Source of the DNA: Eutreptiella sp. 'Long Island Sound 2002'
Lineage: Eukaryota > Euglenozoa > Euglenophyceae > Eutreptiales > Eutreptiaceae
DNA: 64,000 nt
NCBI GenBank assembly: GCA_964036045.1
Contig: OZ038397.1
Coordinates: 19,159,742 to 19,223,741 of the forward strand
Direction of reading: 5' to 3'
Positions 3,877-40,323 of the stretch are shown here, piece by piece; positions within the stretch are counted from its first letter, which is position 1; every line of letters starts with the position of its first letter. A program made the position numbers and the translations under genes. The notes beneath the pieces are model-generated. The model saw only the letters and a list, made by a program, of their open reading frames with translations, was not told the DNA's origin and ran no database searches.

Positions 3877-3970
3877 GGAAAAGCTGTCAAAAACAGACAG
3901 CACGTGCAAGGGGTACAAAGGATTGCATCCACACTGCCACCGAAAGACAAAAAGCACGTAGCACACTGCG

Positions 3971-4450
3971 ACTAACACCGGAGGAAACTGCAGCCACGTG
4001 GATCAAGTGCTTTGGATGCGACATATTTCTTCTGGATACTAGGCTGGCATTCGACGAAACGCCCCTGAAGTACTTTGCAGAGCAAAAGGGAACTTATGAG
4101 TATCCTAATGTGCAAAATGTGTTCCCTTCCCTGCCGCAACAGTTTATGCATCCAAGCATTCATCATGATCATGCTGTCAAAAGGATGTTGTACCCGAAGC
4201 CGAAAGTGTTGATGATGTTCCGCCCACTCCTGCAGTCATTTACCTGCCTCCCCCCCTTCAGTGTTGAGGAGGCTGAAGAGAGAGGTAAACCTACGTCACC
4301 ATTCAGGACTGTTGATGCCTTGAAAAAGAAGCCGACAGCTCCAACACCAGATACCCGATTGTCAGATTCATGCATCTGCGCAGCAAATGGTTGGCACAAG
4401 CGCGTTCGTAATTGCGCCTGGCCCTGCTCACGAAACACAATGCCTGCAGC
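3971..4450 (+). pseudogene. Inverted fragment of the same pogo-like transposase
   Basis: Read on the plus strand this repeats pieces of the neighbouring minus-strand gene: the segment around CCGGAGGAAACTGCAGCC, then the first catalytic block (LAFDETPLKYFAEQKGTYE), then a jump to the HHDHAVK block and the VDALKKKP tail. Pieces between are missing, so it is a rearranged, non-functional copy facing the first one head to head. It probably arose from two elements nesting or from inverted duplication. Confidence 0.75.
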
Positions 4451-4568
4451 TGTGGTGAAGGATGGAACTGTTACGCCAAAATTTCGCCAGGGGAAAATTT
4501 CGCCACCTTTCTTAACGGCGAAATTTTCCCCGCGAAATTCTCCCCTGGCGAAGTTTTCCCCCCCCCTG

Positions 4569-10500: not shown

Positions 10501-13500
10501 TGTCCCACATGAAGTTTTGATGTGGGGGGGATCCATTTTAGGATTTCCCACCATGTGACATAGTCAATTCCTAACCCTATACCCATAGGATTGGAATTTT
10601 TATTTTGTGTCCCACATGAAGTTTTGATGTGGGGGGGATCCATTTTAGGATTTCCCACCATGTGACATAGTCAATTCCTAACCCTAGACCCATAGGATTG
10701 GAATTTTTATTTTGTGTCCCACATGAAGTTTTGATGTGGGGGGGATCCATTTTAGGATTTCCCACCATGTGACATAGTCAATTCCTAACCTTATACCCAT
10801 AGGATTGGAATTTTTATTTTGTGTCCCACATGAAGTTTTGATGTGGGGGGGATCCATTTTAGGATTTCCCACCATGTGACATAGTCAATTCCTAACCCTA
10901 TACCCATAGGATTGGAATTTTTATTTTGTGTCCCACATGAAGTTTTGATGTGGGGGGGATCCATTTTAGGATTTCCCACCATGTGACATAGTCAATTCCT
11001 AACCCTATACCCATAGGATTGGAATTTTTATTTTGTGTCCCACATGAAGTTTTGATGTGGGGGGGATCCATTTTAGGATTTCCCACCATGTGACATAGTC
11101 AATTCCTAACCCTATACCCATAGGATTGGAATTTTTATTTTGTGTCCCACATGAAGTTTTGATGTGGGGGGGATCCATTTTAGGATTTCCCACCATGTGA
11201 CATAGTCAATTCCTAACCCTATACCCATAGGATTGGAATTTTTATTTTGTGTCCCACATGAAGTTTTGATGTGGGGGGGATCCATTTCAGGATTTCCCAC
11301 CATGTGACATAGTCAATTCCTAACCCTATACCCATAGGATTGGAATTTTTATTTTGTGTCCCACATGAAGTTTTGATGTGGGGGGGATCCATTTTAGGAT
11401 TTCCCACCATGTGACATAGTCAATTCCTAACCCTATACCCATAGGATTGGAATTTTTATTTTGTGTCCCACATGAAGTTTTGATGTGGGGGGGATCCATT
11501 TTACGATTTCCCACCATGTGACATAGTCAATTCCTAACCCTATACCCATAGGATTGGAATTTTTATTTTGTGTCCCACATGAAGTTTTGATGTGGGGGGG
11601 ATCCATTTTAGGATTTCCCACCATGTGACATAGTCAATTCCTAACCCTATACCCATAGGATTGGAATTTTTATTTTGTGTCCCACATGAAGTTTTGATGT
11701 GGGGGGGATCCATTTCAGGATTTCCCACCATGTGACATAGTCAATTCCTAACCCTATACCCATAGGATTGGAATTTTTATTTTGTGTCCCACATGAAGTT
11801 TTGATGTGGGGGGGATCCATTTTAGGATTTCCCACCATGTGACATAGTCAATTCCTAACCCTATACCCATAGGATTGGAATTTTTATTTTGTGTCCCACA
11901 TGAAGTTTTGATGTGGGGGGGATCCATTTTAGGATTTCCCACCATGTGACATAGTCAATTCCTAACCCTATACCCATAGGATTGGAATTTTTATTTTGTG
12001 TCCCACATGAAGTTTTGATGTGGGGGGGATCCATTTTAGGATTTCCCACCATGTGACATAGTCAATTCCTAACCCTATACCCATAGGATTGGAATTTTTA
12101 TTTTGTGTCCCACATGAAGTTTTGATGTGGGGGGGATCCATTTTAGGATTTCCCACCATGTGACATAGTCAATTCCTAACCCTATACCCATAGGATTGGA
12201 ATTTTTATTTTGTGTCCCACATGAAGTTTTGATGTGGGGGGGATCCATTTTAGGATTTCCCACCATGTGACATAGTCAATTCCTAACCTTATACCCATAG
12301 GATTGGAATTTTTATTTTGTGTCCCACATGAAGTTTTGATGTGGGGGGGATCCATTTTAGGATTTCCCACCATGTGACATAGTCAATTCCTAACCCTATA
12401 CCCATAGGATTGGAATTTTTATTTTGTGTCCCACATGAAGTTTTGATGTGGGGGGGATCCATTTTACGATTTCCCACCATGTGACATAGTCAATTCCTAA
12501 CCCTATACCCATAGGATTGGAATTTTTATTTTGTGTCCCACATGAAGTTTTGATGTGGGGGGGATCCATTTTAGGATTTCCCACCATGTGACATAGTCAA
12601 TTCCTAACCCTATACCCATAGGATTGGAATTTTTATTTTGTGTCCCACATGAAGTTTTGATGTGGGGGGGATCCATTTTAGGATTTCCCACCATGTGACA
12701 TAGTCAATTCCTAACCCTATACCCATAGGATTGGAATTTTTATTTTGTGTCCCACATGAAGTTTTGATGTGGGGGGGATCCATTTTAGGATTTCCCACCA
12801 TGTGACATAGTCAATTCCTAACCCTATACCCATAGGATTGGAATTTTTATTTTGTGTCCCACATGAAGTTTTGATGTGGGGGGGATCCATTTTAGGATTT
12901 CCCACCATGTGACATAGTCAATTCCTAACCCTATACCCATAGGATTGGAATTTTTATTTTGTGTCCCACATGAAGTTTTGATGTGGGGGGGATCCATTTT
13001 AGGATTTCCCACCATGTGACATAGTCAATTCCTAACCCTATACCCATAGGATTGGAATTTTTATTTTGTGTCCCACATGAAGTTTTGATGTGGGGGGGAT
13101 CCATTTTAGGATTTCCCACCATGTGACATAGTCAATTCCTAACCCTATACCCATAGGATTGGAATTTTTATTTTGTGTCCCACATGAAGTTTTGATGTGG
13201 GGGGGATCCATTTTAGGATTTCCCACCATGTGACATAGTCAATTCCTAACCCTATACCCATAGGATTGGAATTTTTATTTTGTGTCCCACATGAAGTTTT
13301 GATGTGGGGGGGATCCATTTTAGGATTTCCCACCATGTGACATAGTCAATTCCTAACCCTATACCCATAGGATTGGAATTTTTATTTTGTGTCCCACATG
13401 AAGTTTTGATGTGGGGGGGATCCATTTTAGGATTTCCCACCATGTGACATAGTCAATTCCTAACCTTATACCCATAGGATTGGAATTTTTATTTTGTGTC

Positions 13501-16500
13501 CCACATGAAGTTTTGATGTGGGGGGGATCCATTTTAGGATTTCCCACCATGTGACATAGTCAATTCCTAACCCTATACCCATAGGATTGGAATTTTTATT
13601 TTGTGTCCCACATGAAGTTTTGATGTGGGGGGGATCCATTTTACGATTTCCCACCATGTGACATAGTCAATTCCTAACCCTATACCCATAGGATTGGAAT
13701 TTTTATTTTGTGTCCCACATGAAGTTTTGATGTGGGGGGGATCCATTTTAGGATTTCCCACCATGTGACATAGTCAATTCCTAACCCTATACCCATAGGA
13801 TTGGAATTTTTATTTTGTGTCCCACATGAAGTTTTGATGTGGGGGGGATCCATTTTAGGATTTCCCACCATGTGACATAGTCAATTCCTAACCCTATACC
13901 CATAGGATTGGAATTTTTATTTTGTGTCCCACATGAAGTTTTGATGTGGGGGGGATCCATTTTAGGATTTCCCACCATGTGACATAGTCAATTCCTAACC
14001 CTATACCCATAGGATTGGAATTTTTATTTTGTGTCCCACATGAATTTTTGATGTGGGGGGGATCCATTTTAGGATTTCCCACCATGTGACATAGTCAATT
14101 CCTAACCCTATACCCATAGGATTGGAATTTTTATTTTGTGTCCCACATGAAGTTTTGATGTGGGGGGGATCCATTTTAGGATTTCCCACCATGTGACATA
14201 GTCAATTCCTAACCCTATACCCATAGGATTGGAATTTTTATTTTGTGTCCCACATGAAGTTTTGATGTGGGGGGGATCCATTTTAGGATTTCCCACCATG
14301 TGACATAGTCAATTCCTAACCCTATACCCATAGGATTGGAATTTTTATTTTGTGTCCCACATGAAGTTTTGATGTGGGGGGGATCCATTTTAGGATTTCC
14401 CACCATGTGACATAGTCAATTCCTAACCCTATACCCATAGGATTGGAATTTTTATTTTGTGTCCCACATGAAGTTTTGATGTGGGGGGGATCCATTTTAG
14501 GATTTCCCACCATGTGACATAGTCAATTCCTAACCCTATACCCATAGGATTGGAATTTTTATTTTGTGTCCCACATGAAGTTTTGATGTGGGGGGGGTCC
14601 ATTTTAGGATTTCCCACCATGTGACATAGTCAATTCCTAACCCTATACCCATAGGATTGGAATTTTTATTTTGTGTCCCACATGAAGTTTTGATGTGGGG
14701 GGGATCCATTTTAGGATTTCCCACCATGTGACATAGTCAATTCCTAACCCTATACCCATAGGATTGGAATTTTTATTTTGTGTCCCACATGAAGTTTTGA
14801 TGTGGGGAGGATCCATTTTAGGATTTCCCACCATGTGACATAGTCAATTCCCAACCCTATACCCATAGGATTGGAATTTTTATTTTGTGTCCCACATGAA
14901 GTTTTGATGTGGGGGGGATCCATTTTAGGATTTCCCACCATGTGACATAGTCAATTCCTAACCCTATACCCATAGGATTGGAATTTTTATTTTGTGTCCC
15001 ACATGAAGTTTTGATGGGGGGAGGATCCATTTTAGGATTTCCCACCATGTGACATAGTCAATTCCTAACCCTATACCCATAGGATTGGAATTTTTATTTT
15101 GTGTCCCACATGAAGTTTTGATGTGGGGGGGATCCATTTTAGGATTTCCCACCATGTGACATAGTCAATTCCTAACCCTATACCCATAGGATTGGAATTT
15201 TTATTTTGTGTCCCACATGAAGTTTTGATGTGGGGGGGATCCATTTTAGGATTTCCCACCATGTGACATAGTCAATTCCTAACCCTATACCCATAGGATT
15301 GGAATTTTTATTTTGTGTCCCACATGAAGTTTTGATGTGGGGGGGATCCATTTTAGGATTTCCCACCATGTGACATAGTCAATTCCTAACCCTATACCCA
15401 TAGGATTGGAATTTTTATCTTGTGTCCCACATGAAGTTTTGATGTGGGGGGGATCCATTTTAGGATTTCCCACCATGTGACATAGTCAATTCCTAACCCT
15501 ATACCCATAGGATTGGAATTTTTATTTTGTGTCCCACATGAAGTTTTGATGTGGGGGGGATCCATTTTAGGATTTCCCACCATGTGACATAGTCAATTCC
15601 TAACCCTATACCCATAGGATTGGAATTTTTATTTTGTGTCCCACATGAAGTTTTGATGTGGGGGGGATCCATTTTAGGATTTCCCACCATGTGACATAGT
15701 CAATTCCTAACCCTATACCCATAGGATTGGAATTTTTATCTTGTGTCCCACATGAAGTTTTGATGTGGGGGGGATCCATTTTAGGATTTCCCACCATGTG
15801 ACATCGTCAATTCCTAACCCTATACCCATAGGATTGGAATTTTTATTTTGTGTCCCACATGAAGTTTTGATGTGGGGGGGATCCATTTTAGGATTTCCCA
15901 CCATGTGACATAGTCAATTCCTAACCCTATACCCATAGGATTGGAATTTTTATTTTGTGTCCCACATGAAGTTTTGATGTGGGGGGGATCCATTTTAGGA
16001 TTTCCCACCATGTGACATAGTCAATTCCTAACCCTATACCCATAGGATTGGAATTTTTATTTTGTGTCCCACATGAAGTTTTGATGTGGGGGGGATCCAT
16101 TTTAGGATTTCCCACCATGTGACATAGTCAATTCCTAACCCTATACCCATAGGATTGGAATTTTTATTTTGTGTCCCACATGAAGTTTTGATGTGGGGGG
16201 GATCCATTTCAGGATTTCCCACCATGTGACATAGTCAATTCCTAACCCTATACCCATAGGATTGGAATTTTTATTTTGTGTCCCACATGAAGTTTTGATG
16301 TGGGGGGGATCCATTTTAGGATTTCCCACCATGTGACATAGTCAATTCCTAACCCTATACCCATAGGATTGGAATTTTTATTTTGTGTCCCACATGAAGT
16401 TTTGATGTGGGGGGGATCCATTTTAGGATTTCCCACCATGTGACATAGTCAATTCCTAACCCTATACCCATAGGATTGGAATTTTTATTTTGTGTCCCAC

Positions 16501-17994
16501 ATGAAGTTTTGATGTGGGGGGGATCCATTTTAGGATTTCCCACCATGTGACATAGTCAATTCCTAACCCTATACCCATAGGATTGGAATTTTTATTTTGT
16601 GTCCCACATGAAGTTTTGATGTGGGGGGGATCCATTTTAGGATTTCCCACCATGTGACATAGTCAATTCCTAACCCTATACCCATAGGATTGGAATTTTT
16701 ATTTTGTGTCCCACATGAAGTTTTGATGTGGGGGGGATCCATTTTAGGATTTCCCACCATGTGACATAGTCAATTCCTAACCCTATACCCATAGGATTGG
16801 AATTTTTATTTTGTGTCCCACATGAAGTTTTGATGTGGGGGGGATCCATTTTAGGATTTCCCACCATGTGACATAGTCAATTCCTAACCCTATACCCATA
16901 GGATTGGAATTTTTATTTTGTGTCCCACATGAAGTTTTGATGTGGGGAGGATCCATTTTAGGATTTCCCACCATGTGACATAGTCAATTCCCAACCCTAT
17001 ACCCATAGGATTGGAATTTTTATTTTGTGTCCCACATGAAGTTTTGATGTGGGGGGGATCCATTTTACGATTTCCCACCATGTGACATAGTCAATTCCTA
17101 ACCCTATACCCATAGGATTGGAATTTTTATTTTGTGTCCCACATGAAGTTTTGATGTGGGGGGGATCCATTTTAGGATTTCCCACCATGTGACATAGTCA
17201 ATTCCTAACCCTATACCCATAGGATTGGAATTTTTATTTTGTGTCCCACATGAAGTTTTGATGTGGGGGGGATCCATTTTAGGATTTCCCACCATGTGAC
17301 ATAGTCAATTCCTAACCCTATACCCATAGGATTGGAATTTTTATTTTGTGTCCCACATGAAGTTTTGATGTGGGGGGGATCCATTTTAGGATTTCCCACC
17401 ATGTGACATAGTCAATTCCTAACCCTATACCCATAGGATTGGAATTTTTATTTTGTGTCCCACATGAAGTTTTGATGTGGGGGGGATCCATTTTAGGATT
17501 TCCCACCATGTGACATAGTCAATTCCTAACCCTATACCCATAGGATTGGAATTTTTATTTTGTGTCCCACATGAAGTTTTGATGTGGGGGGGATCCATTT
17601 TAGGATTTCCCACCATGTGACATAGTCAATTCCTAACCCTATACCCATAGGATTGGAATTTTTATTTTGTGTCCCACATGAAGTTTTGATGTGGGGGGGA
17701 TCCATTTTAGGATTTCCCACCATGTGACATAGTCAATTCCTAACCCTATACCCATAGGATTGGAATTTTTATTTTGTGTCCCACATGAAGTTTTGATGTG
17801 GGGGGGATCCATTTTAGGATTTCCCACCATGTGACATAGTCAATTCCTAACCTTATACCCATAGGATTGGAATTTTTATTTTGTGTCCCACATGAAGTTT
17901 TGATGTGGGGGGGATCCATTTTAGGATTTCCCACCATGTGACATAGTCAATTCCTAACCCTATACCCATAGGATTGGAATTTTTATTTTGTGTC
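4569..17994. repeat. 107-bp satellite, block B (about 125 units, higher-order repeats)
   Basis: Same 107-bp unit as block A. Diagnostic variants recur at fixed multiples: the GGGGGGAGGATCC variant at 6026 and 7738 and the AATTGCTAACC variant at about 6288 and 8000 are 1712 bp apart (16 units); the variant trio starting at units 12182 and 13359 is 1177 bp apart (11 units). This is higher-order structure of the kind produced by unequal exchange in centromeric-type arrays. There is no gene in the block. Confidence 0.97.
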
Positions 17995-18202
17995 TATGGT
18001 GAGCATAACCTGGCATACCAGGAATACCTGGGAGTATACGGGTAAAAAAGGGGGTTTTGGGAGAAAGGGGTATGTGGCATGTACAGGTGGGTACGAATGT
18101 ATAATGCACAATGCATGCATAGGTGGTTTGGGGAATACCTCTAGTTTGCCAATTGTGATGGTCAATGTTGTGTTTGAAACTACCCCATTTTGGGCTCTTG
18201 GG

Positions 18203-18296
18203 GTATACGGCCGTATACTCAAGGCTCCAATACCTCAGTATACGGCCGTATACTCTGGAGTATACGGCCGTATACTTGGAGTATACGGCCGTATAC
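18203..18296. repeat. TE-1 palindrome cluster 1 (4 copies)
   Basis: Four perfect copies of the 16-bp palindrome GTATACGGCCGTATAC start at 18203, 18238, 18260 and 18281. The last three are 22 and 21 bp apart. They lie between the left TIR and the first gene, a place where transposase- or regulator-binding sites are usual. Confidence 0.9.
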
Positions 18297-18525
18297 TGGG
18301 GGTATTTGTTTGCACCATGTGGTTGTTTCAAGTTGAAAAATTCCATTGTTGTGCCTTTTGTGCCCATCTTGTTGCATGCTTTGCCTTTGCCCAACAATTG
18401 CACACCACTTGAAACCAATCTAGGCTCATACTTCACTCAAGATTGCAATGTATGTCTCCATATGTGTCCATTCCAATCCATATTATGTTGCTTCTTGCTC
18501 TCCCAGGCCCTCTTTTTCTGCCACC

Positions 18526-21500
18526 ATGACTGATGTTGGCACTCATGCCTTGTTGAAGAAGTGGGCCGATGCCGTAGCTCTCCGCACAGTGCACAGAGGT
18601 GTTTACAGCCCCGACAGCACACGCACCGTGTCTTGGCCTTCTCTTGAGAATTGTGCTTGGTCCACCTTGGACACCCCTGTGGCCCTGGTGAAGCTAACGC
18701 ACCCCGGCGTTGCCCAACCCCACAGCCTCACTGACCCTTTGTTGTCGTTGTTTGACAACAACCCTGATCTGCAAGCTATTGTGTTGCAGCTCCATGATTC
18801 GGATGCCCGCGCTGTCGCGGAGCATGTTAAAAAAAGCTGTGGGGGGCCCAATAGGGGGATGAGTTTGTATTTGAGGGAATGGGAGATGCAGGATGGCTCT
18901 CCGGGGATTCATGTCTCGGGGGACGTGGCCGCTGGCTGGCGCAAATGGGAGTGCAAGGCCCAGCAAGTGCAGCGGGGGCATTGGGAGGACACCGCCCCCC
19001 TCTACTCCCTCCACTCCCAATCGCCATGGTCCTGGCATGCCGATTTGGAGGGCCACACCCTCCCCACCTGGTACAAGGGTACTGGGATGCACCCCTCCCT
19101 TTTCTTCCCCCTCACCACCACCCCCCTTTTTGGTGTTGAACACCATCGTGTCTCCATCCCCGTTGACGTCGTCGATCATCGTCATGTCGACGACCTCAAG
19201 GATTTCAAGGAATGGGGCCATGCTTTCCAATCTGGCTTCATTTCTGTCAATTGGATGGACAAGCTTCAGGATGAGTATGGGGAACTTAGGGCAGATGCGG
19301 GGCTCAATATTTTTAATGAGGATTGGCCCGCCGAGACTCGTGCAGGGGACAGTGACACCCGCCGCACAATGACTCCACCGGAGGGGGGTGCAATGTACAG
19401 TTTCGCAAGGGAGGTCCTCATACCCCACTTGGAGACTCATTTGGGTTGGAAGTGTCCGGTCGTGAATGTTACCACCTTTATTGTGGTGAAGGCCGGTACA
19501 GTGGATGTGGAAAAAAAACAGTGTTGGCACCGTGACATTAACCTCAGCTATGTTGCCGGCCCGGACCAACACCATGTTATTTGCTTGTTTCCGATGTTCT
19601 CCCCCACACCCGATGATGGTTGTGCTGGGGATTTTGTGGTTGCCTCCCACACGGGCCTGCCGGACCCGTGGGTGGTGGCCCCGATGTCCCCATTGGACAT
19701 CGGGGATGTGTGGTTGGGCAATGCACTGACTGTGCATCGCGGAGGCATCTGCCCTACCACAAACCCCCATCGGCCCCGTGTTTATGGTTTCATATCGGTT
19801 GGTACCTCCAGGTTCGACTACAACAACACTTGCCCTGTTGTTGTTCCCCCTTGGGCCGGCAAAGCGGCTGCATCCCCCGAAGGGTCTCAAGGCCCTCATG
19901 CCACTTGTGGTGCAGTTGGTTGTGAGGTGTTGTTGGATGTGAGTGATGCTACCACAGTTTTTTGTGTTACATGTGGTAACGTGCCATTGTGTGCCACCCA
20001 CGCCCTGGAGGGGCAGTGTGGTGCCTGTGAGGAGGGCGCTTGGAATCAGGGTGAGACAATGACGCAACACAGTGGTGTTGCATGGGGTCGTTGTCCGGCC
20101 CCACTTCAGTTCTACATGCCCGTTGATGGGGCTACTTTTTTTGCAGTTCATGAACATTTGTCCCCTAGCCCCCTTCGAGTTGGGGTTGAGGGTCACCCTT
20201 CATATGAGGAGTGCCCATTGCGGCAAATGCATGCTAACCCCTTGCCTTCTGTGGGCTCGGATGGCACTTTCCTTGCTTGTCCCCCCGGTTCATTGGTGGT
20301 TTCGCGGGGTTTGATTGGTGGTGTTGCTTTGGCTTCCACCGATACCACAATTGGCGGGGTTTTGCATTGGTTTGCACTTGGGCACAAGCACCACCTCATG
20401 GATGTTGCACTGGCGGAGAGCTACGGTTGGGTGAAGTGGTGGCCATTCAAGACGGTTTCGAGAAAGAAGAAGTCGAAGCCGAAGCCCAAGGCGAAGTCAA
20501 GGAAGGGCAAGGAGAAGGCCGGAGAAGAAGATGAGGACGTGGAGGAGGAGGAAGAGGAGAAGCAAGAGCTGTGGTGCATCTGTAATCAGGTATTTGTGGG
20601 ATCCGGGCATGGGTTTAATTGAACTGTGTTGTTGTTATTCATTAAGTCCCATTTATCTAAAACGGTAGGGTCACTGGTGGGTTTTTTTGTTTGGCCTGTC
20701 TTCAGCGCCTCCCTATATGGTTGCAGTTCTTCAGGTTGAGTTGAATTGAATTGATCATCAACCTCTTCAACTTCTTCCCAGGATTCTTCAATGGCCTACA
20801 CATGTTTTTGCATGTTTGAGGGCAGTGGGGTTTGAACCCGGAACGTTTCGTTTGCAAGTGTAGCATGCATACCTCTCACCCACCCAGTGCCATGGTCTTG
20901 GAATACGGCCGTATACCTTGTGTATACGGCCGTATACCCACGGTATACGGCCGTATACCCCCAGTATACGGCCGTATACCGCGAGTATACGGCCGTATAC
21001 CTGCCCACCCATTTTGAGTATACGGCCGTATACTCCGAGGTATACGGCCGTATACTCGGAGGTATACGGCCGTATACTCATAGTATTTGTTGCCAATTTC
21101 AATCTATTTTGCCTAGTTCTTTGTTAGAATTCCACCCTTTCTTCCCATTCAGGTCCAGTATGATCCCTGGCCACTGCGGAGCATCACCGATTACGAGGTG
21201 GTCGAGCCCGAGGTGGAGTTGGTGGCGCCAAAGGCTGCCGCAGGACAAGTGATCTCCGGTCGGGAGTACGTGGACCCCATTCCTGTGGGTCGGGGGGATG
21301 TTGCCAGTGCGCCCTCCGACCTCGCGTGCACCACTGGCAAGGACACGGGATACTATTCCCGTTTGAATGTCCGTGCCAGTGGTGCACTTTACGACATTCG
21401 CCTGCCCATTAGGGTTGTGGCGAATGTCGCAAAGGGGGGGGGGGTTGTGGAGGCCATTTGGGGGGCTGCGGTGTGGAGCAAGAGCTCCGGGAAGGTGAGG

Positions 21501-22271
21501 GTTTTTTTGAGCACCACGGGGGAAAAATGGAGCATTTCGGACTCCATTATGGTGCTCCAAAGTTTTGGGGGGGAGCCTGTCCCCGGGGAGCACTCCCTCG
21601 CCCTCCAGGCCGAGTTGGCCTCGAGGGCGGGGAAACAGCTTGGGGGGAGGGGGCTGAAGCGGGCTCATGATGAGCCCGCTGCCACCCCTGCACCCACCCC
21701 CACCCGGAAGGCCCCCAAGCCTTCCGGGTCTGCTGCTGCTGCTGTTGCTGTTGGCTCGGGGGGGCTTGAGGGGTTTGGGGGGGTGGGGGGGATTGAAGCA
21801 GCTGCCCGCCGTGGCACATGCGAGGCCCTGGGGGACCTCGATGTGCCCAGCACCGCTGACATTGTCAGCGGTGTTGTGGCGGGCTTGGGGAAGTCCCGGC
21901 TGAACATCTCCCGAGAGATCGGGGAGTTCAGCCGGACTTCCCTGACCTCCTTGAGGGAGGCCAATGCCTCCCTCAAGGAGGAGCTGAAGGTTGCCCATTC
22001 TGAGGGTGACGCCAAGGACAAGAGGATTGCGGACCTGGAGACCAAGTTGGCCGATGCCACCGCAAGTGCCCATGACTGGCACCTCAAGGCCAAGGAGTTG
22101 GAGACGCGACTCCAAGCGGCCAAGGCCAACGAGGAGTGGGCGAGGTCCATTGTGGCCCATAGTGTCACACGGAGTGCACCCCCACCCCAAGGGTCTGGGA
22201 GTCAGGGCAGTGGGAGTCAGGGCAGTCAGTCCGCCTCCCCAACACGTGGCCTCCCCCCAAAGCCGCAATGA
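18526..22271 (+). CDS. TE-1 accessory protein: PhyH-like 2OG/Fe(II) dioxygenase with coiled coil (spliced)
   Basis: Start chosen at 18526 because of its strong context (gccaccATG). Exon 1 is 18526-20589, intron 20590-21152 (GT...CAG, phase 0), exon 2 21153-22271; together about 1060 residues. Exon 1 has a double-stranded beta-helix dioxygenase core with the metal triad HRD (His335, Asp337) and distal His404 (LTVHRGG), and Arg418 placed to bind 2-oxoglutarate, as in phytanoyl-CoA dioxygenase-like enzymes. A Cys/His-rich finger follows (about 461-505), then a Lys-rich and Glu-rich linker (about 646-685) ending WCIC. Exon 2 has a low-complexity stretch and a coiled coil (about 950-1025). Substrate unknown; a role on nucleic acid or chromatin is inferred from the transposon setting. 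An alternative donor at 22225 would splice in frame to 22300 and fuse this protein to the TET/JBP-like domain. Confidence 0.75.
20901..21077. repeat. TE-1 palindrome cluster 2, inside an intron (8 copies)
   Basis: Eight copies of GTATACGGCCGTATAC start at 20901 (one mismatch), 20922, 20943, 20964, 20985, 21018, 21040 and 21062. The first five are exactly 21 bp apart, the last three 22 bp. The cluster lies within the predicted intron 20590-21152 of the dioxygenase gene. Confidence 0.92.
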
Positions 22272-22299
22272 CTACCCCCATCCAACCCCGCCCTTGCAG

Positions 22300-22886
22300 C
22301 TTTATGCCGAGAGTTGGTGTACCGCAAGGTGCACATCTTGGGTGTACAAGTGCACAATGTGCAGTTTGGGGCTACAGGGACACGCAGTCAGGGGAAGGAT
22401 TGGCGCCGTGCGCGCTTGTGCAGCGGCAATGAAAGGCAAAGGGAGCTAATTTGCCTTTCAAATGCACATGCGCATGCGAATTTTCCAAGGTGGTTCCATT
22501 GGACCACCATTCAAGTGGTACAATGCGATACTTCACAAAGAATGCCGGGCCATCGCCATATGAGGGATCCTTCTCCGCTTTCCGCCATCTGCGTTGTCGG
22601 GGCGCATAGTGGTGGGGAGGTCTGTGTTGAAACAGGTGGAGTGCTCCATAGTCCCATGCAAGGGACCCCGATGCGGTTGGATGTACATGGAGGTGGTGGT
22701 GTGGATGCGAAGGCCTACAAGGGCTGGCCGGGTGTGGTTTTCAACTCCAAAGCCCACCACGGGCCTGCCCCATGGAGGGGGGAGCGCTATGCCATTGTTT
22801 TCTACAATGGGTGCAACACAGATTACCTCCAGGATGAGTCTGTTGATGAGTTATTGGCCTACGGCTTTCGTCCTTGGGGCCACTAG
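22300..22886 (+). CDS. TE-1 TET/JBP-like dioxygenase domain (exon or separate gene)
   Basis: Open frame with no good ATG at its start but a good 3' splice site before it (cccgcccttgCAG, ending 22299), so it looks like an exon. The last 110 residues resemble the TET/JBP-type 2OG/Fe(II) fold: WTTIQV strand, a His-containing turn, VVGAHSGGEV (the GG-E/L-W type strand), then FNSKAHHGPAPWRGERYAIV with the distal His and the Arg near the end. In place of HxD the sequence reads HRHMRD, so the first metal-binding Asp appears displaced or replaced. Splicing 22224 to 22300 would be in phase with the upstream gene and give a single protein of about 1240 residues with two dioxygenase domains; this is a prediction. 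TET/JBP enzymes oxidise 5-methylcytosine or thymine in DNA. Confidence 0.6.
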
Positions 22887-22894
22887 TGAGCACC

Positions 22895-22980
22895 GTATAC
22901 TACCAGTATACGGCCGTATACCTCCGAGTATACGGCCGTATACCTGGAAGTATACGGCCGTATACTCGAAGTATACGGCG
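22895..22980. repeat. TE-1 palindrome cluster 3
   Basis: A half-site at 22895, three full GTATACGGCCGTATAC palindromes at 22906, 22928 and 22950, and a final incomplete copy at 22971. Spacing is 22, 22 and 21 bp. It lies between the TET/JBP-like exon and the transposase gene, so it may also serve as the regulatory region of the latter. Confidence 0.9.
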
Positions 22981-23325
22981 AAAGATTTGTGCTGAATCGT
23001 ACATGCTGTGCGCCTGTTGCATGCGCCTGTGCGCACGGTTTCACTGGGCAACTGGCCCACATATGCCTCGCACATATCTCCACAGCAATTATTGTAAGCA
23101 ATATGTTTGCAAATGCCCATCAGAAGGAGAAGGGGCTTTGTTTGGAGAGCATTCAAGATTTTTGTGAGGGAATCAAACGCCGGCATTTGACCCCCTATGC
23201 AGTATGTGCTCTGCATCCACAAACGTCAACGCCAGCACCCTATTTTGTTTCACATGTTATGGCCCACCCTGTTTTTTTTACAATAGGATTGCGGGGAAAG
23301 AGGGCAACGGCAAAGACGTTTGTGG

Positions 23326-24912
23326 ATGCAATCGGTAGCATCAGCATTGCTTGGTGACGATGTACTTTTGCGACCCCATGCCCAAGGCCTCATGATTATT
23401 TTAAAAGATGGTGAGGTGGATGTGGCCGACAAGGAGGCAATTAACCTACTCCGATGGATGCGGCGGCACCACATTTCCATCCGGGCATTGAAGGGTTGCA
23501 TGAGGACCACATGCACTTGGGACCATGTGATGGCAATGCGTAAGACCCTCACACCTTACCTGTCCAAGGGGAGGGTTTTGGAGGTGGCCACTAAAGGGGG
23601 TACCCGGACATGTGGGGTGGTGGAATTGCATGATATTGTCACCACCATGGTTGCATGTGCCCATGCCGAAGACAGCATTCGGAAGTATGAGGAGAATACA
23701 TATTTGGCTGTTGTAATCTGTTCTGATGCCACTGTTTTTCATAATGCCAGTGCCACACGTTGTGACGTGTTTGTGGACCTATGGGAGGATAGGGGGGCAC
23801 ACCATGATGGTCAGGCATGGGCCTCATGGTGGGTTTTTGATGGGGGGGACGATATGGCCCATCTGCAAAGGATGGATGCCGTGGGGAAATTGAATGACCA
23901 AGTCAAAAAACTTGAAGCCGAGGGCGGCATAGAAATTGGGGGTACTCCCAAAAAGTTATTGTGTTTTAAAAGTGGGGATGGGAAAGTCATGATGTCGGGT
24001 TCGTGTGGGAAATGTTGGAATTGCAATCTCAAGTATGACCAATTTCAAGCCCATTTGTTTGCAATTGCAGATTTTCCAGTGCTTCCTCGCATTGGGTCCC
24101 TTATGTCTTGCATCCCTCCTGTCCGCAATGTTGGAGATGTGGCACATTGTTGTGCAAGGGTGGGGACAGGCATTGGGAAACGTCTCAAGGACAGCGCCCG
24201 CACATGGGGTTCACCAGGAGCTCTAAGGGCCGTGTCCCATTTCATTTCTAACCTCCGGCAAGAAGCAAAGCACATCCCTGTGGCCGAGAGAGTGATGCGT
24301 GCTCCCTCGAAAGAGAAGGAACACACTCTCGACATTAACGCCTCCCGTCTTTTTTTCGAAACACCTGAGTTGCACGCCGAGTTGGTGCGCATTGTTGCAA
24401 TGTATTGTACCCATGTTGTGAAGTGGGAGGGCAACAGGTGGCTCAAAATCAGTGCCGTCCTGCACCTCATGTTGCAGGCCTGTTACTATATGCAAAAGAT
24501 TTGGCGCCATGTGGGTCCTGTTCCCATGGATCAACGCCAACGTTATGCATCCATGGTTACACAATTCACCAAGGCATGGGGGGCATTGGGGTGGAGTGTT
24601 CCGGTTTGGGTGCATTGGGTGGTGTGCCACAGTGGGGCACACCTCCAAAGGTGGGGGAATTTTATTAAGTTTTCCTCCATTCCCACGGAATGGAGGAACA
24701 AAAGTTTTAAAATGGACATCCGCCATTGTTTTCAAGGGTGGAAGCTGAGCAAGCCTTATGTCACCCGATGGGGACTAAGGCATGCTCTGCACCTGGATGC
24801 CCTTGATTGGGGCATCCGGTTGTGGTTTGGGGAAAAGGGTTTGGGTAGAGAGGGGATCAAGTTTGGCATGCAACGCATGCGGAAGAAGCATCGTGCACCA
24901 AAGCACATGTAG
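23326..24912 (+). CDS. TE-1 transposase candidate, DDE/RNase H-like
   Basis: 528 residues from the first ATG of the frame. It is the only protein kept by the deleted TE-1 copy, which supports its being the transposase. Candidate catalytic positions: Asp134 in ICSDATVF at the end of a beta strand, Asp218 in FKSGDGK, and Glu455 in IPTEWRNKSFK, with a helical insertion that contains DVAHCCARVG (Asp271, His274). A CxxCxxC cluster (227-233) follows the second Asp. The order of DDE residues with an alpha-helical insertion before the Glu is typical of several eukaryotic transposases, but I cannot assign a superfamily. The C-terminus is Lys/Arg-rich. The fold assignment is inferred from motif pattern only. 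Confidence 0.65.
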   Translation: MQSVASALLGDDVLLRPHAQGLMIILKDGEVDVADKEAINLLRWMRRHHISIRALKGCMRTTCTWDHVMAMRKTLTPYLSKGRVLEVATKGGTRTCGVVELHDIVTTMVACAHAEDSIRKYEENTYLAVVICSDATVFHNASATRCDVFVDLWEDRGAHHDGQAWASWWVFDGGDDMAHLQRMDAVGKLNDQVKKLEAEGGIEIGGTPKKLLCFKSGDGKVMMSGSCGKCWNCNLKYDQFQAHLFAIADFPVLPRIGSLMSCIPPVRNVGDVAHCCARVGTGIGKRLKDSARTWGSPGALRAVSHFISNLRQEAKHIPVAERVMRAPSKEKEHTLDINASRLFFETPELHAELVRIVAMYCTHVVKWEGNRWLKISAVLHLMLQACYYMQKIWRHVGPVPMDQRQRYASMVTQFTKAWGALGWSVPVWVHWVVCHSGAHLQRWGNFIKFSSIPTEWRNKSFKMDIRHCFQGWKLSKPYVTRWGLRHALHLDALDWGIRLWFGEKGLGREGIKFGMQRMRKKHRAPKHM

Positions 24913-25159
24913 GTATATATCATGTGATGTGCAATATGCGTAAGTGTGTATATTAGGTATATATAACATGGGGAAGTGGATCACATTTGACATTTCGGAT
25001 GGGACATCAAACAAGGTTGCTTCTGGTGGTCTTCTGCTTTGCTCATATGGTGCTCTTTTGTGTGTACAATGTGTTTGGGGGTTGCAGGGTCATGAGTAAA
25101 TGCAAGGGGGAGGGGTAGGTGATGAGAATGGTGGCATGGGTGGGAGGCAGAAAGTCCCC

Positions 25160-25223
25160 GTATACTCCAAGTATACGGCCGTATACTTCTGAGTATACGG
25201 CCGTATACTCCGAAGTATACGGC
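25160..25223. repeat. TE-1 palindrome cluster 4, near the right end
   Basis: Half-site GTATAC at 25160, full palindromes at 25171 and 25193, and an incomplete copy at 25215 (spacing 22 bp). It mirrors cluster 1 at the other end. Between 24913 and 25160 I see nothing coding. Confidence 0.9.
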
Positions 25224-25461
25224 AAGAATAGTTCTCCAATACCTCGAGTATACTGACAAATACCTCAAAAAGTGTAAATTGCCATGCATAGGGGTGGGTG
25301 TGCGGAATTGTCTTTCTGGTTTTTTGACCCCCACCCCCCCTATTTTGAGGGTGCTAAACTCATTTTTTCACATCCCATGGGCCCACGGAACGACTAGGTA
25401 CATGTTACAAAATGGCCATTTTGGGGGGGTATTCTTGGTATGCCAGGTTATGCTCACCATA

Positions 25462-26109
25462 TCCCACATGAAGTTTTGATGTGGGGGGGATCCATTTTAC
25501 GATTTCCCACCATGTGACATAGTCAATTCCTAACCCTATACCCATAGGATTGGAATTTTTATTTCGTGTCCCACATGAAGTTTTGATGTGGGGGGGATCC
25601 ATTTTAGGATTTCCCACCATGTGACATAGTCAATTCCTAACCCTATACCCATAGGATTGGAATTTTTATTTTGTGTCCCACATGAAGTTTTGATGTGGGG
25701 GGGATCCATTTTAGGATTTCCCACCATGTGACATAGTCAATTCCTAACCCTATACCCATAGGATTGGAATTTTTATCTTGTGTCCCACATGAAGTTTTGA
25801 TGTGGGGGGGATCCATTTTAGGATTTCCCACCATGTGACATCGTCAATTCCTAACCCTATACCCATAGGATTGGAATTTTTATTTTGTGTCCCATATGAA
25901 GTTTTGATGTGGGGGGGATCCATTTTAGGATTTCCCACCATGTGACATAGTCAATTCCTAACCCTATACCCATAGGATTGGAATTTTTATTTTGTGTCCC
26001 ACATGAAGTTTTGATGTGGGGGGGATCCATTTTAGGATTTCCCACCATGTGACATAGTCAATTCCTAACCCTATACCCATAGGATTGGAATTTTTATTTT
26101 GTGTCCCAT
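25462..26109. repeat. 107-bp satellite, block C (6 units)
   Basis: Continuation of the same satellite unit after TE-1. It ends within a unit at tgtgtccca, where the Penelope-like element begins. The C and T variants in tatcttgtg and catcgtcaa are also found around 15400-15800 in block B, which ties this block to that part of the array. Confidence 0.96.
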
Positions 26110-26302: not shown

Positions 26303-27650
26303 GTGGAAGATTACCCGCCGTTAGAGATGCCTAACAACAATCGTGCCAAGTTTGAATTGTCCAAAGTGCCGTCGGAGTTGAAAAAGACCACTTTGGACCA
26401 CCTCTTATCCTATCGCACTTACAAGCAGAAGGAGTTCGCCCATAAGAAACTGAGGCATCAAATGCTCAACGATTTCAAACCTAAAGAATCTACCTTTCGA
26501 GATGGCACGCAAATCGTGAAACACGTGGTCAATGAAGATCTTCAACGTACATTGCATCAAAACGAATGTGAACTTCGGCTCCAATTCCACCAAAACGATG
26601 TGGATAATGCAAAGAAAGCGGCGGACGTGGCACAACAAGAGTTCATGTCGCACAAGGAAACACGTCACAGTAACGATGGGAAACACTGAAATCCAGATGT
26701 CAGGTGCACAAATGATGCAGTACATGTTTGACCAACCGATGGAGTAAGGGCGCTGAACGCGCCCAGCCTGTATGGGGAGACTCCATAGAATGGTATACTT
26801 TCCTGTTTTATGTCATACCACGCATACATGTCATTGCGTTTAGCTCAAGAACCGAAACCACGCCGGAATGGAACACGAGATGGACAGGAACCGTCAGGAA
26901 CATGTCCCTTGCTGCACTGTTTTAGGTCAGCCCATGGGTTTTTGACAAGCGTTCTTGTGCTCTGCTTTTGCATTGCTGAATAATCAACCACACGCTCGCA
27001 CTTTGAGGCAAAGGACACATTGGTGAAGCAATACAAATTTGGAGACTTTCTACAAGATGATGCGGATGTGCTTATGGCACTTGATACACAATATGATGGC
27101 ACCGTATCGGCGCTTCGTGACCACATGAAACACGAGTTGGAAGCTGTCATAGCACAAGTGGTTGATGCACGCCGCAAGATTGACTTTGAATGTGAGAATG
27201 CACACCAAAAATACTTAGACTTTCATGCTAAAAAATTTGGTGGACCGTTCAATACGCATTCAAAATGAAACCGTACGCAAGGAGGTGGAGAAGGCCTTAG
27301 CACAAGACGAAGTTGTCCAAAATCAACAAGAACAAATCAAAATGTTGACCGAGGCGATGAAGTTGCTCATGCAGGATAAAGGGCGTGGCGGATCAAAAAA
27401 CGGGCAGCAACGTGGTGGTGGCGGCGGAGACAAAAAGCGAAGCAAAACCCCACCGCCGCGTCAACCTCGGAAACCCTACACACCCCGATCCAAGAGCACG
27501 AATTCTCCACGAACTCCACGCGCAGCGACGCCATCATCATCCACGGGCAACAAACGCAAAAGGCTAACAACAAGTGGCAAAAAACGAAACGCAAAGCGAC
27601 ATGGCAAAGGCAAAGGCGGCGGACCAAAAGGCAAGAAGCAACAAGGGTGA
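26303..27650 (+). pseudogene. ORF1 of the Penelope-like element (frameshifted)
   Basis: Coding pieces in three frames follow each other: 26303-26689, 26532-26747 overlapping it, about 26984-27268, and 27225-27650. The pieces share a polar, coiled-coil-like composition, then a Lys/Arg/Ser/Pro-rich tail with RGGGGGDKKR, as in nucleic-acid-binding Gag-like proteins. One break lies at an A6 run near 27230, so some shifts could be assembly errors. The stretch 26750-26980 holds stops in all frames that fit. No domain could be named. Confidence 0.5.
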
Positions 27651-29902
27651 AAGATGCACTCAACGTGAGATTGCATGTACAAACTCTCAAAGGGGACGCA
27701 GTGGAAGAGCCACCGCCGTATCTCAAACTCTTGTTGTCCTTGGGACCGAAATATGTCCCCCATCCCCACGCGCCTCACTTTGTGCCGCGCCTCAAAGCTA
27801 TTCGCCATGAGTGTGAGGAACTGGCTCGCACGTTGGGTTGGTCCGCGTTTTTTGAAAAGAAAAAGCGAGATGGCCATCATGACGATCCAGACTTTCGCAC
27901 CACACTACCATACAAGAAGTTGTTTCGCCCGAAAGGTACTTCACTCCCGATAAAAGTGATTGAAGAAATTCCGGAAGCATATTCGATCATTGAAGCGGAA
28001 GTGAAGCGTGCGGAGGAAGATAGTCTTTTGTGCATTGATTATCTTCGGTCCAAACCGTTGTATCGACGTGGCATTGCTTTTAAGTCGTCCCTCGTTGACT
28101 CGTATCTTAAGGATACCTTGGTTGTGGGCGCCGATAAGGACGGTTCATCGGTATGCATTTCAAAACAATCTTACATGCGTGAGGTGAGCAACCACATGCA
28201 GAGTGAGGTGTACCGCAAATTGGATGGTGATACAAACACATGGCAAGAGAAAGCAAAAGCATGGATGGAATACCTACATATCCTCATTCGTTCGGTTATG
28301 CCAATGAATTTGGAAAAAGTGATTTTGAATTTCCTTGATCAATCAAAGACCCTCGTGCTTGCAAAGTTTTACTTGTCGTGTAAGACACACAAGTCTCTTT
28401 CCCTCAAGAAAGATGGAGGTTGGGCATCTCGCCCCCTTGTGGGATTGTACCGATGGAGCACCACAAGCGCCTCCATTTTACTATCTATTGGTGGCACAAT
28501 TTTGTTAAAATGTGACCGTGATCGCGACGCTTTGAGGACCCCACTCCGTGATACCAGGGATGTGTTGTCACGTTTACACCATGAAGACGTGCAACACTTC
28601 ACAAGAATGTCCACGGTGGATTTCTCTTCATTGTATACAACTATAAAGTGGTCCGACGTTTCACTTGCCTATCGTTATTGGCATGCATGGTACAAGCAAG
28701 ACGGCAAAACCATGAAAGTGATGTCCGAGGAAGAAGCGGAATTCATGGACATGCTTTTTACTCCCATGTCCATTGAGTCATTTCGTATGTACAACCCGCT
28801 CTTCCCTTTTTCAACCCTTGAGTACTCACCCGTTTTAACAATCGGCGAGTTTCTTTTACACGTGATTTTCACTCATTGTGTTTTTGAAACCCCCGGACTT
28901 GGTGTTTATGTTCAACTTTCGGGATGGGCGATGGGCACGAATGCGGCGCCCACATGGGCCAATTTGGTGCTTCGTTTTTACGAAAGCCGTGTCCCACCCC
29001 CAAGCTCCCATGTGATGACTCGGTTCATTGATGACGGTCTTGTCCTCCAGCACCCCGATGTTACTCGCGAGCAATTATTACAAGACATTCAAAGTCTATA
29101 TCCTCCACATTTGAATGTTGAGTTTGAAGTGTTCAATCGTATGACAAACATTCCTTACATGGACTTGTTAATTGTAAAGGTGAAGCCACTTGAAACAAGT
29201 GTGTACTTTAAACCGACCCATACTTGTTCTTACATCCCGTGGGGTTCTAATACACCACGGCATGTGAAGTTAGGTTGGGTCACCGGTGAATGCATTCGTT
29301 TTTTACGCCTATGCTCTCATGAACACTATTTCAATGCATGTTGGTCTAGACTCCAAGGAGCTCTTATGAGACTAGGGTATCCTAAACATGCATGGCGAAA
29401 AGCACCAAGACAATGGAGTGATAAGAGGAGGTATGTACATGACCGTGGCAAATTGGATGAGATTGTGCACGCTGTTCGAGTGCCATATCATTCATCTATG
29501 CCAATTCCTTGGGCTGCTATGTTTTCCCGAATTCGTTATAAACTATTACCGTCAATACCAGGTTTGCAAGTGCGAGTCACTTTGAAGTCTTCTCCTAATT
29601 TACGCATATTATTTCACGCACGGCGAAGGCGAGCATTGGAAAAGATGAACTCTAAGTGCGTGCGGCGACATGTGATTCGATCTGTCGCGCATGTGATTGC
29701 AGAATACACCGTTCAATTTAATTTTACTCGTCCAGTTCAGTTCTCTGCTCCATTTTCCGTGACATTGCCAGTTTTCCTTTCTGTTGGTACGCGCGCACGC
29801 AGCCTCATCAGCGTGCGCGCACGCGGCACAGAACGCGAGAACACAGCAGCAGCGAAGTATACATCCTGGATGTGGCACCATGGTGGTATCTCTCGGATCT
29901 GA
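27647..29902 (+). CDS. Reverse transcriptase of the Penelope-like element (ORF2)
   Basis: Uninterrupted 751-codon frame. It begins with GTG overlapping the ORF1 stop, and the first in-frame ATG lies far inside, so expression by frameshift, reinitiation or splicing from ORF1 is likely. Palm motifs: A, STVDFSSLY (Asp325); B, GWAMGTNAAP (around 429); C, TRFIDDG (Asp462-463); then NVEFEVF and IPYMDLLI for motif D, and a KPTHTCSY thumb-side motif. The cysteine- and GIY-YIG-type endonuclease region is not seen; the last 150 residues are basic and unassigned. The last 47 bases lie in the 803-bp duplicated segment, so the original stop may have been lost. Confidence 0.8.
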   Translation: MKDALNVRLHVQTLKGDAVEEPPPYLKLLLSLGPKYVPHPHAPHFVPRLKAIRHECEELARTLGWSAFFEKKKRDGHHDDPDFRTTLPYKKLFRPKGTSLPIKVIEEIPEAYSIIEAEVKRAEEDSLLCIDYLRSKPLYRRGIAFKSSLVDSYLKDTLVVGADKDGSSVCISKQSYMREVSNHMQSEVYRKLDGDTNTWQEKAKAWMEYLHILIRSVMPMNLEKVILNFLDQSKTLVLAKFYLSCKTHKSLSLKKDGGWASRPLVGLYRWSTTSASILLSIGGTILLKCDRDRDALRTPLRDTRDVLSRLHHEDVQHFTRMSTVDFSSLYTTIKWSDVSLAYRYWHAWYKQDGKTMKVMSEEEAEFMDMLFTPMSIESFRMYNPLFPFSTLEYSPVLTIGEFLLHVIFTHCVFETPGLGVYVQLSGWAMGTNAAPTWANLVLRFYESRVPPPSSHVMTRFIDDGLVLQHPDVTREQLLQDIQSLYPPHLNVEFEVFNRMTNIPYMDLLIVKVKPLETSVYFKPTHTCSYIPWGSNTPRHVKLGWVTGECIRFLRLCSHEHYFNACWSRLQGALMRLGYPKHAWRKAPRQWSDKRRYVHDRGKLDEIVHAVRVPYHSSMPIPWAAMFSRIRYKLLPSIPGLQVRVTLKSSPNLRILFHARRRRALEKMNSKCVRRHVIRSVAHVIAEYTVQFNFTRPVQFSAPFSVTLPVFLSVGTRARSLISVRARGTERENTAAAKYTSWMWHHGGISRI
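29791..29820. other. GC-rich hairpin near the 3' end of the retroelement
   Basis: Perfect 10-bp stem GCGCGCACGC / GCGTGCGCGC with a 10-base loop. It lies within the last codons of ORF2, 36 bp before the duplicated segment starts. It could be a structure for reverse transcriptase recognition or simply local repetition; function is unknown. Confidence 0.6.
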
Positions 29903-30658
29903 CTGAGGCCCTTGCTCCCTCGGTACAGTGCCGGTACATCGCAGACCGTGTCAGGTGGAGTGTTGGAGAGATGCGCACGGCCACATGGCGGCTGACTGGG
30001 GAAAGTGTGTCTCGGCTGATTGGGAAAGTCTACCTGTCGGATTCCGGAATGCCCCCGATGTTTGTGATCTCCGAGGCCGACTACGAGGCACGGAAAAAGC
30101 GCATCACGGATCGGCCCAAGAACACGGGTGACACAACAACACGCAAACAAGGCCTAATCACCGCGGATGAGATGGCCAGGGCCATGGAGTTGGACGACCA
30201 AGTCGACAAAGTCATCAGCTCCCTCAAACGCAGGCATTACCTCCACCTGGGGGGGGCCGTCGCCCTAAGGCGACCTACGAAATCATTGCGTCGCCTTAAG
30301 GCGCCTTATGGCGACTTAAGGCGCCGCGGCGCCGGAATAAGGGCGCTGACAGCGCGCGCGCCGCCGCCGCAAAACAATAAGCCGCCAGCAGGGTTCGAAC
30401 CACCGCTCTCTCCCATCGCCGGCGACTGTGCCAAGGAAGCGCCGCCGCCGCAAAACGGACAGTCGCCGGCACGGTTCGAACCAACGCTCTCTCCCATCGC
30501 AGGCAACTGTGCTGACTGCTCGACCAATCAGGCTGCTGGCAATTGTATGTTTGAATTTCATAGGGGTTGGACCTCACAGAGAAAAAATTTTAAAAAAAGC
30601 GACCGACGCGAATGCACAGATTCGCCCCTGTCCAACGTACAAAGACCAAATCACCTTG
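29856..30658 (+). repeat. 803-bp direct duplication, copy 1
   Basis: Identical to 31708-32510 except for about half a dozen single-base differences, with a constant offset of 1852 bp. It repeats the 3' part of the unknown gene 30794-32560 and sits directly behind the reverse transcriptase. The high identity implies a recent event. 30659-30793 between this copy and the gene holds nothing I recognise. Confidence 0.95.
30378..30545 (-). repeat. tRNA-like (SINE-type) double unit, copy 1
   Basis: Two units on the minus strand each end in GGTTCGAACC, the tRNA T-loop/box B sequence, preceded by GATGGGAGAGAGC. The outer unit also shows a tRNA-like acceptor pairing (GCCAGCA with TGCCGGC, 6 of 7 pairs) and a D-loop-like TTGGTCGAG. 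No credible full cloverleaf forms, so this is a tRNA-derived repeat rather than a tRNA gene. Confidence 0.4.
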
Positions 30659-30793
30659 GGATGCCTCGCGCGCGTGCAGAAATAAAGGATTTTACGCTTC
30701 TGAAAAGTTCTGTTTTATATTAAAATTTCTGTTTGTAATTCAGGGTTCTCTGTATGGACTGATCATGAAGGATTTCATCAATTTCAAAGAGTG

Positions 30794-39576: not shown

Positions 39577-39828
39577 GTAGTGAATGTACGTATTGTAGCC
39601 AAAGGAATATGGTGAGCATAACCTGGCATACCAGGAATACCTGGGAGTATACGGGTAAAAAACGGGGTTTTGGGAGAAAGGGGTATGTGGCATGTACAGG
39701 TGGGTACGAATGTATAATGCACAATGCATGCATAGGTGGGTTGGGGTCCAGGGTCCAGGAATACCTCTAGTTTGCCAATTGTGATGGTCAATGTTGTGTT
39801 TGAAACTACCCCATTTTGGGCTCTTGGG

Positions 39829-39922
39829 GTATACGGCCGTATACTCAAGGCTCCAATACCTCAGTATACGGCCGTATACTCTGGAGTATACGGCCGTATA
39901 CTTAGAGTATACGGCCGTATAC
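39829..39922. repeat. Palindrome cluster, left part of TE-1 derivative
   Basis: Four GTATACGGCCGTATAC copies at 39829, 39864, 39886 and 39907, in the same positions relative to the TIR as in TE-1. The right counterpart at 42135-42198 has one perfect copy, one with a C-to-T change and two half-sites. Confidence 0.9.
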
Positions 39923-40151
39923 TAGGGGTATTTGTTTGCACCATGTGGTTGTTTCAAGTTGAAAAATTCCATTGTTGTGCCTTTTGTGCCCATCTTGTTG
40001 CATGCTTTGCCTTTGCCCAACAATTGCACACCACTTGAAACCAATCTAGGCTCATACTTCACTCAAGATTGCAATGTACGTCTCCATATGTGTCCATTCC
40101 AATCCATATTATGTTGCTTCTTGCTCTCCCAGGCCCTCTTTTTCTGCCACC

Positions 40152-40268
40152 ATGACTGATGCGGGCACTCATGCCTTGTTGAAGAAGTGGGCCGATGCCG
40201 TAGCTCTCCGCACAGTGCACAGAGGTGTTTACAGCCCCGATAGCACACGCACCGTGTCTTGGCCTTCT
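40152..40268 (+). pseudogene. Leftover 5' end of the dioxygenase gene
   Basis: The first 39 codons of the TE-1 accessory protein (from MTDAGTHALLKKW) remain, then the sequence jumps through the deletion joint into the region before the transposase gene in another frame. No enzyme domain is left. Confidence 0.85.
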
Positions 40269-40323
40269 CTTTTTTTTACAATAGGATTGCAGGGAAAGAG
40301 GGCAACGGCAAAGACGTTTGTGG

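Follow-up and report, generated by a model that had tools for sequence, protein, structure and literature searches.

The window analyzed here, a 64,000-nucleotide stretch of the genome of Eutreptiella sp. 'Long Island Sound 2002', contains at positions 17995-25461 a complete DNA transposon of 7,467 bp with a predicted transposase gene and an accessory gene with a dioxygenase-like region. Its extent is that given in the original prediction, and its terminal inverted repeats (TIRs), target duplication and gene content bear out the claim of completeness. The left TIR (17995-18028, + strand), which starts TATGGTGAGC, and the right TIR (25428-25461, - strand) have the predicted 34 nt each and are 97% complementary; the element termini are TATGG..CCATA. 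The 25-nt TIR tip occurs four times without mismatch in the window and not once in 100 shuffles: two occurrences belong to this element (copy 1), and two surround a second copy (39608-42436). The precise insertion into a satellite, also predicted, was confirmed: copy 1 splits a 107-bp satellite unit, GTGTCCCACATG, whose arrays occupy 4569-17994 and 25462-26108. Because GTGTC closes the left flank and TCCCACATG opens the right one, comparison with that unit identifies TC as the duplicated sequence, at 17993-17994 (inside the satellite) and at 25462-25463. A TA duplication combined with a shorter TIR was rejected, since at copy 1 it fails to restore the satellite unit and since the 2 bp adjoining TATGG differ among copies.

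The second copy, which is on the + strand and had escaped the original prediction, is internally deleted. It retains element positions 1-651 and 5275-7467, including both ends, both subterminal palindrome arrays and transposase exon 2; the C-terminus of this exon is read in a shifted frame, very little of the accessory gene is left, and the flanks (AA/CA) show no clean duplication. In the 2.28-Gb genome containing the window, the TIR with at most three mismatches gave 408 forward and 381 reverse matches, which are counts of ends and not of elements, and the reversed pattern gave none. Stretches of 10 kb were taken at 20 of the 34 TIR places listed on one contig (C1); both element ends were present in nine of them, eight of which have an exact 2-bp duplication (the exception is L020). 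Ten further copies were read at their expected ends, of which eight have both ends and seven of these eight the duplication. Overall, counting both window copies, 16 of 19 end pairs carry a 2-bp duplication, where about 1 in 16 would be expected by chance. The duplicated dinucleotide varies (TC, AT, TT, TG, TA, AA, AG, CT, AC and CC), and is TA in only 3 of the 16. One copy, L016, is 99.9% identical to the window element over the full 7,467 bp, and activity has therefore been recent. The element thus has a defined structure, variable 2-bp target duplications and many near-identical copies.

The DDE-like protein of the original prediction is real, with 27 homologues, and splice signals support a better model of its gene, which lies on the + strand. 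This adds a putative exon 1 (23103-23201; 33 codons), whose product resembles by eye the N-termini of P0023 and P0029, and starts exon 2 (23287-24912; 541 codons plus the stop) at 23287, with a predicted intron between them. P0029 is itself a predicted protein in which an N-terminus like that of a divergent transposase from this family is joined to this accessory gene; it likely reflects an element inserted into another element, or a hybrid element. P0017 represents a transposase family that is 55% identical. The transposase motifs GDGK, CWNC, HWVVCH and IPTE are conserved wherever the aligned members extend over them, with few exceptions (P0025 and P0026 have CWLGDC, and P0018 has lost the first D). 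The motif order is D, D, CxxC, HxxxxH, E, with the E 20 residues past the second H, and the C(2)C and H(3-4)H of the CMCT clade are found between the second D and the E. A fold search with the predicted structure returned the RAG1/Transib-type fold, and the 2-bp duplication falls within the 2-5 bp of the clade; the CA..TG termini of most CMCT elements are absent, TATGG..CCATA standing in their place.

By sequence, the transposase matched none of the named superfamilies. None of 18 family members matched PF02992 (Transposase_21) at E<=0.1, a threshold that a distant relative could escape; no KDZ (Kyakuja-Dileera-Zisupton) transposase family was matched in Pfam, the fold search returning RAG1/Transib instead. 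PHROGs gave no match to the transposase, and scans of viral_contigs with P0014, P0023 and the accessory protein found no relatives. The earlier statement that the element matches no known superfamily is nonetheless not supported in that form, since the predicted fold and motif order agree with RAG1/Transib and the CMCT clade. Because of these we regard the element as a lineage of its own inside a known clade and not a new kind of transposon, the family forming an additional divergent RAG1-fold branch. The notion of a separate lineage that acquired dioxygenases is accordingly kept as far as the lineage is distinct, is not KDZ (given its 2-bp duplication) and carries a PhyH-like gene, and is not supported as far as it took the element to match no known superfamily.

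The accessory gene, also on the + strand, is predicted to be spliced. Exon 1 (18526-20589; 688 codons) encodes the PhyH-like 2-oxoglutarate (2OG)/Fe(II) region, a Cys/His-rich stretch and a basic and then acidic tail; frame and splice signals point to a GT..AG intron of 563 bp (20590-21152); and exon 2 (21153-22271; 372 codons plus the stop) ends in a coiled-coil C-terminus that Pfam scores below its curated cut-offs. The spliced product would have 1,060 amino acids. Its putative 2OG/Fe(II) site consists of HRD at residues 335-337 (19528-19536), H404 and R418, i.e., an HxD...H facial triad and a 2OG arginine; P0031 has HCD, and broken copies deviate. The full HxD..H..R pattern also appears in 156 of 20000 shuffles, and since the pattern alone is thus weak, the PhyH assignment rests on a profile comparison. 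Twelve loci were taken from 37 host PF05721 matches, and 11 reading frames were drawn (the near-duplicate L047 was left aside), nine of which were aligned after L040 and L041, in the wrong frame, had been dropped; the accessory profile combined residues 201-500 with P0028 and P0038. In hhalign, HRD fell over HQD and the distal HRGG over HFGG, in the register of the triad, across 79 columns with a score of 36.5. Over 300 columns the score was 35.6, versus a maximum of 23.9 in 200 column shuffles, 12.4 for the reversed query and 11-20 for eight further stretches of protein encoded in the window. This comparison supports the prediction that exon 1 holds a PhyH-like 2OG/Fe(II) dioxygenase region. 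The spliced PhyH-like gene of the original prediction therefore survives in its site pattern, profile similarity and predicted intron, and fails to gain support from Pfam. A homologue search with the catalytic region returned 11 proteins, all within the homologue set already known; the PDB sequence search gave no match to the accessory region at E<=10; PHROGs matched exon 2 only weakly and exon 1 not at all; and the Pfam scan at E<=10, whose filters drop most matches above 0.1, had no match to Tet_JBP.

Many copies have an exon 1 without stops, and this exon is under purifying selection. In the genome search with this exon, the best 65 of 3345 first-look candidates were scored, which favors good copies; 48 of these 65 are stop-free, 11 (window included) are identical to the window protein, and 15 have one equal, lower score. 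Because these 26 copies form two equal-scoring stop-free groups, and 48 of the 65 are stop-free, the objection that the accessory gene was captured only once is excluded. Variants were counted in 22 copies, window included, that span at least one fifth of exon 1. Those found in at least two copies comprised 57 synonymous and 49 nonsynonymous changes, a ratio of nonsynonymous to synonymous polymorphism (pN/pS) of 0.25, and no stops, versus 123 synonymous, 262 nonsynonymous (0.63) and 11 stops among lone variants (Fisher p 6e-5). As the ratio for lone variants is also below 1, part of the nonsynonymous deficit is mutational bias or shared history. Shared variants were few in transposase exon 2 (five synonymous, six nonsynonymous; 0.34) and in ORF3, the open reading frame (ORF) between the two genes (three and four; 0.39). 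Between the window and L014, a member of the 15-copy group, there are 21 synonymous and 20 nonsynonymous differences in exon 1, 5 and 2 in the transposase, and 3 and 7 in ORF3. Ratios against L010, L011 and L027 were 0.36-0.47 for exon 1, 0.48-0.92 for the transposase and 0.61-1.53 for ORF3. Over exon 1, the window and the 87%-identical L029 gave 0.44, and the remaining pairs of window, L029, L030 and L031 gave 0.54-0.80, the catalytic part reaching 0.85. Clear constraint was not seen in accessory exon 2 or ORF3. These data support the view that the PhyH-like accessory gene has been carried along through many rounds of transposition.

The element also carries a palindrome, TATACGGCCGTATA, that is found nowhere else in the window: there are 16 exact matches in copy 1 and five in copy 2. 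They lie near both ends, in the predicted intron and between the genes, as a left subterminal array of four (18204-18295), seven within the intron (20923-21076), an intergenic array of three (22907-22964) and a right subterminal array with two full palindromes (25172-25207). The left array is kept in all 28 projected copies (L006, with 131 matching bases, was not projected), a retention that is partly by design because copies were picked by their left end. Each palindrome contains two CpGs, and other copies have transitions there. Lone transitions affected 1.68% of CpGs versus 0.57% of other cytosines (2.96-fold, p 5e-21), and the observed/expected CpG ratio is 0.56 in the element and 0.77 at window positions 54399-61000. 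The host genome has 55 matches to PF00145, six of them nearly full-length and stop-free. The transition excess, the CpG ratio and the PF00145 genes together suggest CpG methylation.

ORF3 (22314-22886, + strand; 190 codons) lies between the accessory gene and the transposase. Its C-terminal H..RY pattern was one we took to be dioxygenase-like, and ORF3 was considered as a second, TET/JBP-like dioxygenase. The candidate was rejected: HRH occupies the place where HxD is expected in all nine genomic copies and in the window, and ORF3 has no Pfam match, is not similar to PhyH (score 13.9) and gives no clear selection signal. The PDB sequence search found no match at E<=10, and PHROGs gave only weak ones. 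ORF3 is without length changes in seven of the nine genomic copies covering it, and is perhaps the remnant of another enzyme gene.

Elsewhere in the window, a single ORF at 2674-3978 (- strand), with DETPL and LLVDNVSSH stretches, looks by eye like a pogo/Tc1-type transposase; it sits at an interruption (2260-4568) of the same 107-bp satellite, and Pfam returned only one unrelated sub-threshold match. A 751-codon ORF at 27647-29902 (+ strand) resembles a Penelope-type reverse transcriptase by eye and has no Pfam match. The near-identical segments 30358-30512 and 32210-32364, with 81-bp repeat units and with ORF parts in common at 29872-30723 and 30791-32560, apparently arose by local duplication. 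Two ORFs at 44627-45274 and 46236-47072 (- strand) with an HGFEGRWRQLK stretch, again without a Pfam match, may be pieces of another transposase. The long uninterrupted ORFs at 54399-55766 and 59696-60949 (+ strand), by eye a Prune-type phosphatase and a glutaminyl cyclase, are likely host genes. Rfam had no match across the window at gathering scores.

We favor reading the element as an autonomous cut-and-paste CMCT transposon whose PhyH-like accessory enzyme counters host silencing, an account that we think has about an even chance of being correct. That the transposase is a RAG1/Transib-fold DDE enzyme joining the element to cuts staggered by 2 bp is strongly supported, and it would cut and join much as RAG1 and Transib do. 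The palindromes with their CpGs, which lie between the genes and near the two ends, would recruit the accessory protein, and this would oxidize a silencing mark there, most likely 5-methylcytosine, allowing the element's genes to be expressed or its ends to be used by the transposase. Activity, substrate and palindrome binding are what we infer for this protein, as is the removal of host DNA or chromatin marks that the original prediction had proposed. The more specific proposal, that a captured enzyme of the PhyH and not the TET/JBP family is targeted by element-specific CpG palindromes and oxidizes 5-methylcytosine or another mark at the element's own ends, is possible, and we offer it tentatively.

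Several observations weigh against this account. The hhalign match to PhyH is modest (probability 35%, P 4e-4, few sequences), and its 79 columns span HRD to the distal H, leaving the arginine outside. Pfam found no dioxygenase in the accessory protein, the PhyH gathering score not being reached, and we therefore call the region PhyH-like and not a PhyH member; the sub-threshold Pfam matches of exon 1 are unrelated (7tm_2, E 0.04-0.27; zf-C2HC5, 0.87). AlphaFold modeling of residues 1-518 with six close sequences gave a pLDDT (predicted local distance difference test) of 30, so the fold is not confirmed, and the only relatives found for the accessory protein belong to the family in this genome. 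L030 and L031, counted as stop-free for exon 1, have shifted frames. Accessory exon 2 has few shared variants, 11 synonymous and 25 nonsynonymous (pN/pS 0.78), differs from L014 by 9 and 13 (p 0.09) and has ratios of 1.05-1.18 against L010, L011 and L027, indicating weak or no constraint. The PDB sequence search with the transposase profile returned three unrelated chains (E 0.39-1.7) and no RAG1. DNA methylation is deduced from substitutions only, and PF00145 includes enzymes of other specificity.

Other explanations divide mainly over what the accessory protein does. It might be a 2OG oxygenase whose target is RNA or a protein (a histone, a host factor or the transposase itself) and not DNA, since the known substrates of the PhyH superfamily are above all small molecules and proteins, and capture of a non-DNA enzyme is plausible in a host with 37 PhyH matches of its own; the CpG palindromes, confined in the window to element copies, and the CpG deamination footprint point, indirectly, to a DNA mark instead, and we find this alternative rather doubtful. 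Transposons commonly capture host genes, and the accessory gene could be a passenger that benefits the host and not the transposon. This idea has no direct evidence in its favor, and variants common to transposon copies are constrained while the lone variants include 11 stops; selection thus acts on the moving lineage, and a host-serving passenger appears very improbable.

The protein could instead be a TnpA-like DNA-binding partner of the transposase, its dioxygenase-like fold non-catalytic or minor. According to PMC1636069, maize Spm and SmTRC1 each code for one more protein in addition to the transposase; the palindrome arrays at the two ends are retained in the deleted window copy, and a C-terminal coiled coil is indicated by Pfam, albeit below cut-off. 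HRD and the distal H stand in PhyH register, however, and constraint is stronger in exon 1 than in the rest of the gene; we consider such a partner unlikely. We judge it equally improbable that this is a common but diverged EnSpm/CACTA transposon whose second ORF is unrelated and resembles PhyH by convergence or chance: the fold, CxxC..HxxxxH..E and 2-bp duplications do fit CMC elements, and 2-bp repeats are reported for 7 of 14 SmTRC1 copies (PMC1636069), but the termini are not CACTA/CAC, PF02992 is unmatched at E<=0.1, and the PhyH alignment outscores all 200 shuffles.

An element that counters silencing with its own dioxygenase has close parallels in fungi. Kojima 2025 (PMC12730594) describes TET+ EnSpm, ESTA and Plavaka transposons with a TET/JBP gene inside the element and a proposed anti-silencing role, and they share with the present element a CMCT-clade transposase (C(2)C, H(3-4)H), short target duplications and an iron/2OG dioxygenase gene for which such a role is proposed. 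In the fungal elements, the cargo is TET/JBP, whereas here it is PhyH-like (TET/JBP was not compared by profile), and the termini are CAC..GTG, TGT..ACA or CATCA..TGATG and not TATGG..CCATA. ESTA duplicates TA, unlike the variable dinucleotides seen here (TA in 3 of 16), and PlavakaA shares the 2-bp duplication but not its TGT..ACA termini. IS3EU, as described there, has TAYGG..CCRTA termini and TIRs of >30 bp, into which this element fits, but 6-bp duplications. KDZ elements likewise carry dioxygenase cargo; theirs is TET/JBP, and their duplications are 7 or 8 bp, not 2 bp. The literature listings searched, whose coverage mostly leaves out subscription journals, yielded no PhyH-like cargo in a CMCT transposon.

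With Transib/RAG1, the element shares the fold predicted for almost the entire transposase and the order D, D, CxxC, HxxxxH, E, and in RAG1 the E also follows the second H by 20 residues. It differs in having an extra gene and palindrome arrays, in showing no detectable sequence similarity in the PDB and in its 2-bp duplications, those of Transib/RAG1 being 5 bp. EnSpm/CACTA elements, such as maize Spm with TnpA, have a second protein beside the transposase and short duplications, and maize Spm has repeated subterminal motifs as this element does; the CACTA/CAC terminus and a PF02992 match are lacking here. Fungal transposon-borne TET/JBP genes suggest that mobile elements use dioxygenases against DNA methylation, and a PhyH-like enzyme in that role would make the strategy more general, the enzyme, its palindromic sites and a RAG1-fold transposase forming a compact system for targeted demodification with transposition. 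If so, capture of a PhyH-family enzyme would represent an independent origin of a DNA-demodifying dioxygenase. PMC10398659 and PMC1636069 tie maize Spm TnpA to demethylation; the candidate factor here, unlike TnpA, resembles an enzyme in its own right and would be the enzymatic counterpart of that precedent.

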